A DNA stretch of 64,000 bases from Streptomyces sp. CB02058 (GTDB lineage Bacteria > Actinomycetota > Actinomycetes > Streptomycetales > Streptomycetaceae): the NCBI RefSeq assembly GCF_001905505.1, contig NZ_LIPG01000001.1, forward strand, positions 496,001 through 560,000. The letters are read 5' to 3'. Below are positions 43,351 through 45,908 of the stretch, one piece after another (within the stretch, counting starts at the first letter, position 1; the number at the start of each line of letters is the position of its first letter). The notes under the pieces were generated by a model. It did no database searches and was not told the DNA's origin. It saw nothing but the letters and a program-made list of their open reading frames with translations. A program made the translations under genes and the position numbers.

Positions 43351-43706
43351 CGCCCGCCGTACGAAAGTCCGAGGGCGGCCGGTCCCGGGCGTCCCCGGGG
43401 CCGGCCGCACATGGGTGACCGGGCTGCTGTCCCCTGCCGACCGGTCACACGCGCCGGAACGCGGTCCCACGACGTACCAGCGATACGTCACACGTTCCGG
43501 CGGAGCCACGCGTGGATTCCTACCGATGCTGCCGCCCCTGGCTGGCACGGACACCTGGACCAACGAAGCCCTCGGACGCCCGGTCACGCGCCGTACGGGT
43601 GAGACCTGGCCCGAACGCGGGTGCGCCCGTGCACCCTTCCCGCACGCGGCACCCGGCCGGGCGGCGTTCCCGTACGTCACGCCTGCCCGTGCTCCTCGCC
43701 CGTACG
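43351..43706. other. Structured intergenic region between LASTG gene and aroQ
   Basis: 356 bases. It holds the LASTG terminator (43375-43408) and nested inverted repeats: CGCCGGAACG (43452-43461) with CGTTCCGGCG (43493-43502), enclosing GACGTA (43471-43476) with TACGTC (43484-43489). CGTACGTCAC recurs near 43672 and 43700. Open frames are present but lack a ribosome site or recognisable protein. Confidence 0.6.
43375..43408 (+). terminator. Terminator after LASTG surface protein
   Basis: GCGGCCGG (43375-43382) pairs with CCGGCCGC (43401-43408), with a further CCCGGG pairing inside. It starts 25 bases after the stop codon. Confidence 0.78.
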
Positions 43707-44009
43707 TCACACCCGGCCGCGCGACAGCTCCAGCAGTGTCATGGCGAGTGCCGTGCCCGGCCTGCCCAGGGCGTCGCTGTAGTGGGCGAGTACGTCCATC
43801 TCCCGGGAGAGGTTCACCCGGCGGCCGCCGGACGTGATCCTCGCCTCCTGGATGACCGCCGACACGGCCATCCGTTCCTGGACGAGGCCGATGATCCGGT
43901 CGTCCAGGGCGTCGATCCGGGTCCGGGCGTCACCGATCAGGGAGGCGGCCTCGTCGGTGTGCGCGCCGGTCCGCTCGGCGGCGGTCTTCGTGGGTGCGGT
44001 GCTGGTCAT
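43707..44009 (-). CDS. aroQ: Chorismate mutase (AroQ type, actinobacterial short form)
   Basis: Rearranges chorismate to prephenate on the way to Phe and Tyr. The 100-residue protein is all-helical: IGDARTRIDALDDRIIGLVQERMAVSAVIQEAR carries the first Arg, RRVNLSREMDVLAHYSD the second, and LAMTLLELSRGRV closes the helix bundle. It is very like M. tuberculosis Rv0948c, which is activated by DAHP synthase. ATG 44009 follows AGGAG (44017-44021). That site can pair with an upstream CTCC, and the leader upstream encodes a Phe/Tyr peptide, so synthesis is probably controlled by amino-acid supply. The gene is divergent from guaA. Confidence 0.92.
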   Translation of the reverse strand: MTSTAPTKTAAERTGAHTDEAASLIGDARTRIDALDDRIIGLVQERMAVSAVIQEARITSGGRRVNLSREMDVLAHYSDALGRPGTALAMTLLELSRGRV

Positions 44010-44016
44010 CCGTGAC

Positions 44017-44088
44017 TCCTGGGGGCTGCGGGCCCCGGAGCGACAGGCCCGGAACGCCAGAACGCCCCGGGCCTGTCGGCCCGGGGCG
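44017..44088 (-). promoter_or_regulatory. Predicted attenuator with alternative hairpins ahead of chorismate mutase
   Basis: On the minus strand, hairpin A:B pairs 44078-44088 with 44063-44073 (11 bp, GACA loop). The B strand can instead pair with C: 44067-44078 with 44041-44052 (12 bp, perfect). The two are mutually exclusive. Next, CTCCGGGG (44033-44040) can pair with the CCCC and AGGAG ribosome site at 44017-44026. No U-run follows, so control may be translational or by a U-less terminator. The mechanism is inferred. Confidence 0.7.
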
Positions 44089-44114
44089 CCTTGGAGAAGT
44101 TGCTTGTCAGTTGC

Positions 44115-44186
44115 TCAAGCAGCACGACCATGGCAGCCGGCGGGCCGGGTGCCATAGGTAAAGACGAAGGTCGTGTGCTGACGCAT
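44115..44186 (-). CDS. Predicted 23-residue leader peptide with Phe/Tyr codons
   Basis: A short ORF starting MRQHTTFVFTY and ending 105 bases before the chorismate mutase ATG. Codons 7, 9 and 11 are TTC (Phe), TTT (Phe) and TAT (Tyr). TTT and TAT are rare in this GC-rich genome. The ATG lies 6 bases from a predicted -10 box, so it would be translated from a leaderless transcript. It resembles leader peptides of amino-acid attenuators; the product itself probably has no function. It has not been recognised from a database. Confidence 0.65.
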   Translation of the reverse strand: MRQHTTFVFTYGTRPAGCHGRAA

Positions 44187-44192
44187 GGGGCA

Positions 44193-44221
44193 AGTATGGA
44201 CCCCGCCCCACGCCCGGTCCA
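44193..44221 (-). promoter_or_regulatory. Predicted promoter of the chorismate mutase leader
   Basis: On the minus strand TGGACC (44216-44221) and CATACT (44193-44198) with a 17-base spacer. Transcription should begin at or next to the A of ATG 44186, making the leader peptide mRNA leaderless. Confidence 0.6.
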
Positions 44222-44321
44222 CGCCGGGCCCGGATGGTGAGACGGGAGCCCGGCGGGGCGCCGCTCCACGGCCGGTAGAATTGGGAGGACCGACCCCTCT
44301 TCACCGCCGGAAGGCCGCCCC

Positions 44322-45908
44322 GTGCCAGCAGCACCCCCCGCCGCCGCCGACATCACCACCGACGTGGTCCTCGTCGTCGACTTCGGCGCCCAGTACGCCC
44401 AGCTCATCGCCCGCCGCGTCCGTGAGGCCCGGGTCTACAGCGAGATCGTCCCGTCCACGATGCCGGTGGCCGAGATGCTGGCCAAGAACCCCCGGGCGAT
44501 CATCCTCTCCGGCGGCCCGTCCTCGGTGTACGCGGAGGGCGCGCCCAGCCTCGACCGTTCGCTGTTCGAGGCCGGCGTCCCGGTCTTCGGCATGTGCTAC
44601 GGCTTCCAGCTGATGGCGACCACCCTCGGCGGCACGGTCGACGACAACGGCGCACGCGAGTACGGCCGCACCCCGCTCGCCGTCTCCAAGGCAGGCTCCA
44701 CCCTCTTCGAGGGCACGCCCACCGAGCAGTCGGTCTGGATGTCGCACGGCGACGCCTGCTCCGCCGCCCCCGAGGGCTTCACCGTCACCGCGTCCACGGA
44801 CGTCGTGCCGGTCGCCGCCTTCGAGAACGACGAGAAGAAGCTCTACGGCGTCCAGTACCACCCGGAGGTCATGCACTCGACCTACGGCCAGCAGGTCCTG
44901 GAGCACTTCCTCTACCGGGGCGCGGGCATCGAGCCGACCTGGACGACCACCAACGTCGTCGAGGAGCAGGTCGCCCTCATCCGCGAGCAGGTCGGCGACA
45001 AGCGCGCCATCTGCGGTCTCTCCGGCGGCGTGGACTCCGCGGTCGCCGCGGCCCTCGTGCAGAAGGCCATCGGTTCCCAGCTCACCTGCGTGTACGTCGA
45101 CCACGGTCTGATGCGCAAGGGCGAGACCGAGCAGGTCGAGAAGGACTTCGTCGCCGCGACCGGCGCGAAGCTGGTGGTCGTCGACGCCGAGAAGCGCTTC
45201 CTCGACGCCCTGGCGGGTGTGTCCGACCCGGAGCAGAAGCGGAAGATCATCGGACGCGAGTTCATCCGCGTCTTCGAGCAGGCGCAGCTGGAGATCCTCC
45301 AGGAGGACGGCCCCGAGGTCGCCTTCCTCGTGCAGGGCACCCTCTACCCGGACGTCGTCGAGTCCGGTGGCGGCACCGGCACCGCCAACATCAAGTCCCA
45401 CCACAACGTGGGCGGCCTCCCCGACGACATCGAGTTCCAGCTCGTCGAGCCGCTGCGCCAGCTGTTCAAGGACGAGGTCCGGATGGTCGGCCAGGAGCTC
45501 GGCCTGCCGGAGGAGATCGTCCAGCGCCAGCCGTTCCCCGGCCCCGGCCTCGGTATCCGCATCGTTGGCGACGTCACCAAGGAGCGGCTCGACCTGCTCC
45601 GCGAGGCCGACGCCATCGCCCGCGAGGAGCTGACCGCCGCCGGCCTGGACCGCGACATCTGGCAGTGCCCCGTGGTCCTCCTCGCGGACGTCCGCAGCGT
45701 CGGTGTCCAGGGCGACGGCCGCACCTACGGCCACCCGATCGTGCTGCGCCCGGTCTCCTCCGAGGACGCCATGACGGCCGACTGGTCGCGCCTGCCGTAC
45801 GAGACGCTGGCCAAGATCTCGACCCGCATCACCAACGAGGTCGCCGACGTCAACCGCGTGGTGCTCGACGTGACGAGCAAGCCGCCGGGGACGATCGAGT
45901 GGGAGTGA
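44322..45908 (+). CDS. guaA: GMP synthase (glutamine-hydrolysing)
   Basis: Aminates XMP to GMP with glutamine and ATP. The 528-residue protein has the class I glutaminase domain ([17 protein letters not shown], nucleophile Cys in FGMCYGFQ at about 92, His/Glu in QYHPEVMHS at about 181). The ATP pyrophosphatase domain has the [13 protein letters not shown]-loop at about 233, and the dimerisation domain ends [20 protein letters not shown] 44322 follows GGAAGG. A TAGAAT -10-like box lies at 44276-44281. It completes the guanine pathway begun by guaB 20 kb upstream. Confidence 0.97.

Follow-up and report, generated by a model that had tools for sequence, protein, structure and literature searches.

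Among the closest described systems is that of C. glutamicum, in which the aroR leader peptide precedes aroF and acts by ribosome-mediated attenuation (Neshat 2014, as told in passages of PMC11802643). In the same passages, the aroR leader is said to contain Phe-Tyr-Phe and to respond to Phe but not to Tyr supply, and the lines on aroR in PMC7356990 present it as a translational regulatory leader peptide. The aroQ leader of Streptomyces described here resembles aroR/aroF in being an actinobacterial leader with Phe/Tyr codons in the aromatic pathway, a likeness drawn from the published description of aroR; it differs in its target, which is chorismate mutase instead of DAHP synthase. In gammaproteobacteria, E. 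coli pheL is a Phe-rich leader. It lies before pheA (PMC11802643, in part). The two systems have a Phe leader peptide in common, and pheA encodes chorismate mutase-prephenate dehydratase, but at the present locus the leader is a leaderless ORF whose control codons are few, and it stands before a separate chorismate mutase and not before a bifunctional enzyme.

Leaderless leader peptides are familiar in Streptomyces, with trpL, leuL, ilvL, and others appearing in Table 4 of PMC8079986 and in parts of PMC1262725. The aroQ leader is like them in combining a leaderless ORF, end-product codons, and hairpins thereafter. The eight S. lividans leader peptides of that table (PMC8079986, Table 4) include none for aroQ, Phe, or Tyr. 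Passages of PMC1262725 describe attenuators of trp, leuS, and trpS in Actinobacteria, together with candidate ilvB and cys leaders, and state that the regions before phenylalanine and tyrosine operons showed no conserved RNA structure in the Actinobacteria studied there; they also recount that mutating the candidate codons of the S. coelicolor ilvB leader did not affect regulation. In mycobacteria, leaderless cysteine-rich uORFs (Shell 2015; PMC4633059, in part) and, for cysteine genes of M. smegmatis, translation attenuation (passages of PMC13236596) have been described. These uORFs, too, are leaderless and contain the controlled amino acid, which in their case is cysteine. Further work on them was reportedly published by Canestrari in 2020. 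The word chorismate is absent from the main text of PMC4633059, PMC9094748, PMC13236596, PMC4833913, and PMC2965389, and the relevant passages of PMC12125101 and PMC2659441 mention chorismate mutase just as C. glutamicum csm without a leader and Shewanella pheA. A preliminary description of the present locus had known of no published chorismate-mutase attenuator, and our survey of the open-licence literature likewise found no description of an attenuator or leader peptide for chorismate mutase or aroQ. Attenuators of this kind are known for other genes; as judged by the literature searched, one before aroQ would be new.

The stretch of DNA analysed here, referred to as the window, comprises 64,000 nucleotides of Streptomyces sp. 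CB02058. On its minus strand, aroQ (43707 to 44009, ATG at 44009) encodes a chorismate mutase matching NCBIfam PRK07857 (4.6e-34) and Pfam CM_2 (8.3e-7), with an AGGAG ribosome site at 44016 to 44020; guaA is the neighbor on the opposite strand. Upstream on the same strand as aroQ, the promoter TGGACC-N17-CATACT proposed in the preliminary description is present in sequence and spacing: the -35 hexamer TGGACC (44216 to 44221; 5 of 6 matches to TTGACC) is separated by 17 nt from the -10 hexamer CATACT (44193 to 44198), and an ATG follows 6 nt further on at 44186. This distance compares with an average -10 to start site spacing of 6.3 nt in S. lividans, as given in part of PMC8079986, and transcription would start at the A of this ATG. 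Simple promoter and terminator scans of the window, with E. coli-like rules, gave no match. The -35 element matches at 4 to 6 of 6 positions at 82 of 110 Streptomyces loci, a raw count with no chance baseline, taken as the best of four spacings from 16 to 19 nt. A start search at 138 loci of the family, looking for an ATG or GTG located 5 to 8 nt after a -10-like hexamer, succeeded with an in-frame start at 132 of them; four loci were without a recognized start and two without the anchor motif.

The ATG at 44186 opens the 23-codon leaderless ORF that the preliminary description had reported, MRQHTTFVFTYGTRPAGCHGRAA plus TGA (44115 to 44186, minus strand), and codons 7 to 11 are the TTC GTC TTT ACC TAT (Phe-Val-Phe-Thr-Tyr) run at 44154 to 44168. 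The further statement that this run uses rare codons holds for codons 9 and 11 and fails for codon 7, the common TTC: across 39 window ORFs, Phe is written as TTT in 4 of 365 cases (1.1%) and Tyr as TAT in 27 of 347 (7.8%). The leader ORF was found at all 110 Streptomyces aroQ loci examined. Besides that of the window, this set holds 80 named loci, which ranked highest among 432 in one genome scan, and 29 loci found by searching the genus, which came from the top scorers among 147 matching genomes. Removal of 12 identical segments left 98 distinct ones, in which codon 9 is TTT in 97 and codons 10, 11, and 12 are ACC, TAT, and GGC in all 98; 95 segments encode Phe or Tyr at codon 7, and codons 2 to 6 are variable. 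The ORF has 23 residues at 104 of the 109 Streptomyces loci with a recognized start. Across the family, the distance from start to TTT takes five values (18, 21, 24, 27, and 33), and all 132 recognized starts are in frame. Two of the 110 Streptomyces loci (L026 and L069) have single-base insertions that shift the frame, solely after the control codons. The RNA stems of L026 and L069 are largely intact, and the frameshifts may be real or sequencing errors.

The Phe/Tyr run is also specific to this position. In 416 kb around the 80 named Streptomyces loci, 122 short ORFs of the leaderless type were detected, 77 of which have a stretch of six residues with three Phe/Tyr; every one of these 77 is the aroQ leader. 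No leaderless ORF with such a run was found in the 900 nt upstream of the starts of HMM matches at six further aromatic loci of the strain's own genome (DAHP synthase II L226 and L228, prephenate dehydratase L229 and L230, and prephenate dehydrogenase L231 and L232); among these stretches was one ORF whose Tyr residues are scattered, with distances counted from the HMM match and not from the start codon. As judged from sequence, the reading frame and control codons of the leader ORF are established, and with these conserved, the short, probably translated leader ORF with codons for the pathway end products is what is expected of a trp/phe-type attenuator. We also considered and rejected a second, overlapping ORF, which begins at an internal ATG in CCATGG and ends at the aroQ start as ATGA (44006). 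It stops exactly at the aroQ start in 34 of the 103 loci that have this ATG, about the one in three expected from frame alone; at seven more loci the ATG is absent.

Conservation extends to the whole family. At 31 further family loci the leader was present without exception, giving 141 of 141 family aroQ loci. Phe/Tyr conservation, for which an alignment across Streptomyces had been suggested, holds throughout: the Phe control codon is retained at all 141, with TTC replacing TTT at a few (e.g., L063, L163, and L237), and the Tyr control codon is gone at two, L163 (FTQG) and L235 (FSHG). A covariance model built from 52 sequences, to which the 98 distinct segments were reduced at 93% identity, matched in 108 of 150 family genomes at E values up to 0.001; 101 remain when seven rated as weak, with a best E no lower than 7.5e-6, are set aside. 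All 28 family loci fetched (L150 to L169 and L182 to L189) have both aroQ and the leader. When 20 family genomes with no match (17 of 42) or a weak one (3 of 7) were checked, aroQ exceeded the family cut-off in three, all of genus g5 and all with a leader of the form MSSF.VT..FS(Y/H)GTG, in which a stop-codon hairpin and a terminator stem were recognized by eye and which the model scored weakly or not at all. The other 17 of the 20 have no aroQ over the cut-off, and in this sense the element and aroQ are lost together. Genomes of g14, g7, and g8 and one of g1, with no aroQ over the cut-off, mostly have weak chorismate-mutase-like matches, and another chorismate mutase presumably serves the family genomes that lack aroQ. 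Three model hits (L178, L180, and L181) were set aside, as no leader with an aromatic run was apparent by eye, and many further hits match the terminator part alone.

The RNA following the control codons is highly structured. The window's leader is more stable than its dinucleotide shuffles (z of -5.0, with none of 200 as low), and its elements all lie on the minus strand. Segment 1 (CUAUGGCACCCGG, 44145 to 44157) and segment 2 (CCGGCUGCCAUGG, 44128 to 44140) are the arms of the codon hairpin P1, which is paired in 97.7% of cells over 70 sequences and overlaps the control codons as the 1:2 hairpin of an attenuator should; it is nearly invariant and so offers little covariation. Next comes P2 (44102 to 44120), GCUUG...CAAGC, with the stop codon inside. 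Segment 3 (CC AA GGCG CC CCGG, 44081 to 44094) is complementary to segment 2 and provides the foot of the terminator hairpin, GGCGCCCCGGGCC GACA GGCCCGGGGCGUU (44061 to 44090; -31.3 kcal/mol with flanks), which in the window is followed by an interrupted U-rich tail to about 44053. Compensatory forms of P2, noticed by eye and then counted, are GCUUG/CAAGC, GUCUG/CAGAC, GCCUG/CAGGC, GUGUG/CACAC, and GCAUG/CAUGC. In alignment A3 (43 of the 52 model sequences plus 27 of 40 further loci, with L164 and L170 to L181 dropped), 98.1% of cells are paired. Changes on both sides occur at 14 of 29 pairs and in 63 cells, counts that lean towards the modelled structure since A3 was fitted to the covariance model; shuffles gave means of 5.5 and 12.6 with none of 500 reaching the observed values, and slid controls gave at most three pairs and eight cells. 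Thirteen of the 14 pairs lie in P2 (four; one pair, for example, is UA in 43, CG in 14, GC in 5, and AU in 1) and in the terminator stem (nine of its 13 pairs, with 99.7% of its cells paired). The stem covariation that the preliminary description had named as a check is thus found in P2 and the terminator stem, and at the level of sequence both stems and their fixed position before aroQ can be regarded as established.

Termination itself would occur at the terminator hairpin. Past its stem, T is enriched in 92 distinct tails (0.41 to 0.68 at positions 1 to 4 and 0.58 to 0.84 at positions 8 to 10); the U tract is short and interrupted, and corresponding hairpins with plainer T tracts are found at several f17, f31, and f37 loci of other families. 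An Rfam search of 43600 to 44500 of the window gave eight matches, none at gathering score, the best having 24.2 bits against 90. An outer stem between codons 3 to 6 and GGUCGUGCUG, seen in the fold of the window, was discarded: RNAalifold did not include it in the consensus for 52 leaders, and codons 3 to 6 vary.

Taken together, the aroQ leader is real and strongly conserved and very probably constitutes a classical Phe(/Tyr)-responsive attenuator, and we consider it likely that it works as a ribosome-mediated transcription attenuator reading charged tRNA-Phe and, in most members, tRNA-Tyr as well. The proposal of a Phe/Tyr attenuator of chorismate mutase in the preliminary description is supported by the conserved ORF and codons, by the covariation of two stems, and by the leaders of other families described below, while its structural details need to be changed. 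In the revised scheme, RNA polymerase would begin with the A of the leader's start codon, and a ribosome would load on the leaderless ORF. With sufficient Phe and Tyr, the ribosome would reach the stop codon and cover segment 2 and the 5' arm of P2, leaving the terminator (3:4) free to form, and aroQ would not be transcribed. Under scarcity of Phe or Tyr, it would stall at UUU or UAU and cover segment 1; segment 2 could then pair with segment 3 around P2, no terminator would form, and aroQ would be made. Without translation, P1 (1:2) would be expected to form and transcription to terminate. This amino-acid response is what the arrangement of codons and hairpins points to, and of the two amino acids Phe is the likelier main signal, its codon being kept at the loci that have lost Tyr. 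The presence of just two or three control codons counts against the model.

The weakest link of the attenuator model is the 2:3 step. When the leader up to the terminator loop was folded with the ribosome-covered stretch removed, the terminator's 5' foot paired upstream at no fewer than four of its nine positions in 69 of 70 leaders with the ribosome at UAU and in 2 of 67 with the ribosome at the stop codon. With no ribosome, this was the case in 41 of 70, the window's leader included, so that the default state is not clear-cut. The pairing, as seen in L014 and L035, joins CCGG-UGCC-UGG to CCA-GGCG-CCGG around P2, each pair being possible in 53 to 70 of 70 sequences; the window's own fold keeps UGG/CCA and GCC/GGC and uses GGC/GCC further out. 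Since the pairs are nearly invariant, there is little covariation. In L006, UGCC to UGUC in segment 2 and AGGC to AGAC in segment 3 are changed together, and in L161 and L165 a joint change of UCG with CGA is apparent by eye, although the alignment counts both as unpaired. The 2:3 fold reached -23.1 kcal/mol, compared with -23.2 with segment 2 shuffled and -23.7 with segment 3 shuffled; the foot was paired at six or more positions in 87%, compared with 65% and 68%, respectively. Cognate 2:3 duplexes (-20.1) were barely better than between-family ones (-18.1), a comparison with poor rows for the window and f4, for which the terminator was misplaced (a long hairpin and a later stem, respectively). 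As shuffled and swapped partners do about as well energetically, we can only infer that the 3' half of the ORF (segment 2) and the terminator foot (segment 3) form the antiterminator, and we regard them as likelier partners than B and C, discussed next. The preliminary description had CGGCCCG of the ORF pairing with its strand A. The conserved stretch that would compete with the terminator spans codons 16 to 20 (CCGGCUGCCAUGG) and takes in more than CGGCCCG.

Strands A, B, and C of the preliminary description, among which B was to pair with either A or C, are present in the window as described, but the role given to B:C had to be abandoned. Comparing folds at 109 loci (one of the 110 being without a recognized ribosome site), we found the A:B terminator at 99 and B:C as the lowest-energy fold at 10. 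The window is one of these 10, and there A finds its partner further downstream. Because C is transcribed later than the terminator, B:C would form after the polymerase has passed the latter and cannot be the antiterminator. A 25-pair inverted repeat of the window (44032 to 44087, minus strand) contains the terminator in its 5' arm; in this repeat, A pairs with a downstream strand and B with C.

These pairings bear on the alternative that the same leader and ribosome sensing control aroQ at translation, by hiding or freeing its ribosome site, which we judge unlikely, though it fares best among the alternatives. In the window's lowest-energy whole-leader fold, AGGAGU is indeed paired, with ACUUCU before the terminator, and the ribosome site pairs with the stretch between the terminator and the site in 91 of 110 folds, its median unpaired probability over 109 loci being 0.26. 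However, this pairing has no conserved partner: CTCC before GGGG (CTCCGGGG), which the preliminary description had pairing with AGGAG, occurs at 30 of 110 loci, and B:C is as rare as stated above. A pairing of the stretch between P2 and the terminator with the ribosome site was also rejected, its complementarity being no better than that of shuffled sequences (-4.5 versus -5.0 kcal/mol). Strong conservation ends, moreover, at the terminator-like hairpin with its T-rich tail, and plainer T tracts are seen at the several other-family loci mentioned above. Control of termination is favored over control of translation.

Leaders of similar design occur beyond the family. With the rule for other families, which was settled following a first look and asked for an ORF of 8 to 45 codons having three or more Phe/Tyr among six residues, a leaderless ORF with a Phe/Tyr run precedes aroQ at 9 of 27 outside loci, compared with 2 of 1,350 shuffles of the same upstream regions. 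The 27 are all matches over the cut-off, two f18 loci being second copies. In f4, four of eight aroQ loci (L190, L191, L194, and L196) have leaders of the RFFYGYR(P/S)AVPV type, with a GC-rich terminator-like hairpin, and leaders were also found in f35 (1 of 1), f31 (2 of 2), f37 (1 of 1), and f14 (1 of 2, the other cut by the contig). None was recognized in f18 (0 of 11), f21 (0 of 1), or f12 (0 of 1), and overall 18 of the 27 outside loci were without a recognized leader. By eye, several outside loci show hairpins over the codons and GC-rich terminator-like stems.

In f17, leaders of the form MQR(N/K)FWRFYGYRP, picked up by the covariance model, precede a gene beginning MVIVMAP at all nine loci examined (L170 to L177 and L179); these ORFs are leaderless, and both a hairpin and an evident terminator-like stem accompany them. 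For one downstream gene, the N-terminal 94 residues matched DAHP synthase models, the best at 5.6e-30 but short of the cut-off for full length, and a DNA pattern for the f17 leader hit 22 of 394 genomes of the class, all of them f17. The f17 leader resembles a sister attenuator acting at DAHP synthase, where the pathway begins. FYGYRP is shared by loci of f4, f35, and f17, with codons that are partly different. It is tempting to speculate, as a tentative reading that we rate somewhat below even, that one old actinobacterial aromatic leader module, with an FYGYRP-like ancestor, governs entry into Phe/Tyr synthesis in several families, standing before chorismate mutase in some and before DAHP synthase in another; its parts would be Phe and Tyr codons, then Y-G and a GC hairpin, and then a stop-codon hairpin and terminator. 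The leaders of the different families may have arisen by common descent or by convergence.

The recurrence of FYGYRP with partly different codons in f4, f35, and f17, and the nearly invariant TYG in Streptomyces, would also suit a nascent arrest peptide that senses free Phe/Tyr or translation stress instead of reading tRNA codon by codon. We consider this very unlikely: residues 13 to 17 vary within the family, residue 23 follows the stem (GCT becoming GTC where P2 is GUCUG/CAGAC), the frame is shifted after the control codons in 2 of 110 loci, and the f31, f37, and f14 leaders differ. Slightly less probable still is a ribosome-independent riboswitch for Phe, Tyr, or a pathway metabolite, with the ORF incidental. 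The extreme nucleotide conservation from TTTACC to the terminator, wobble positions included, is what such an element would predict, but the two partners of segment 2 can explain this conservation, no Rfam family reached its gathering score, all 132 recognized starts are in frame, and several other families keep Phe/Tyr codons in a different RNA. It is scarcely credible that the ORF yields a small protein with a function of its own, or that it arose by chance within a conserved promoter region of the divergent guaA and aroQ, even with guaA adjoining aroQ at 27 of 28 fetched family loci, given that codons 2 to 6 are free while rare synonymous codons are fixed, unlike in a protein, and that the kept frame (132 of 132) and the specificity of the run (77 of 77) argue against chance.

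If the ribosome-mediated attenuator proposed here is true, Streptomyces would place chorismate mutase, the Phe/Tyr branch point, under amino-acid-responsive control. Classical attenuation in this genus was left in doubt by mutation work on ilvB and leuA, as recounted in parts of PMC1262725, and the aroQ leader would provide a leaderless test case for it. Its presence at all 141 family aroQ loci examined would make it a dependable target for studies of aromatic flux to antibiotics.
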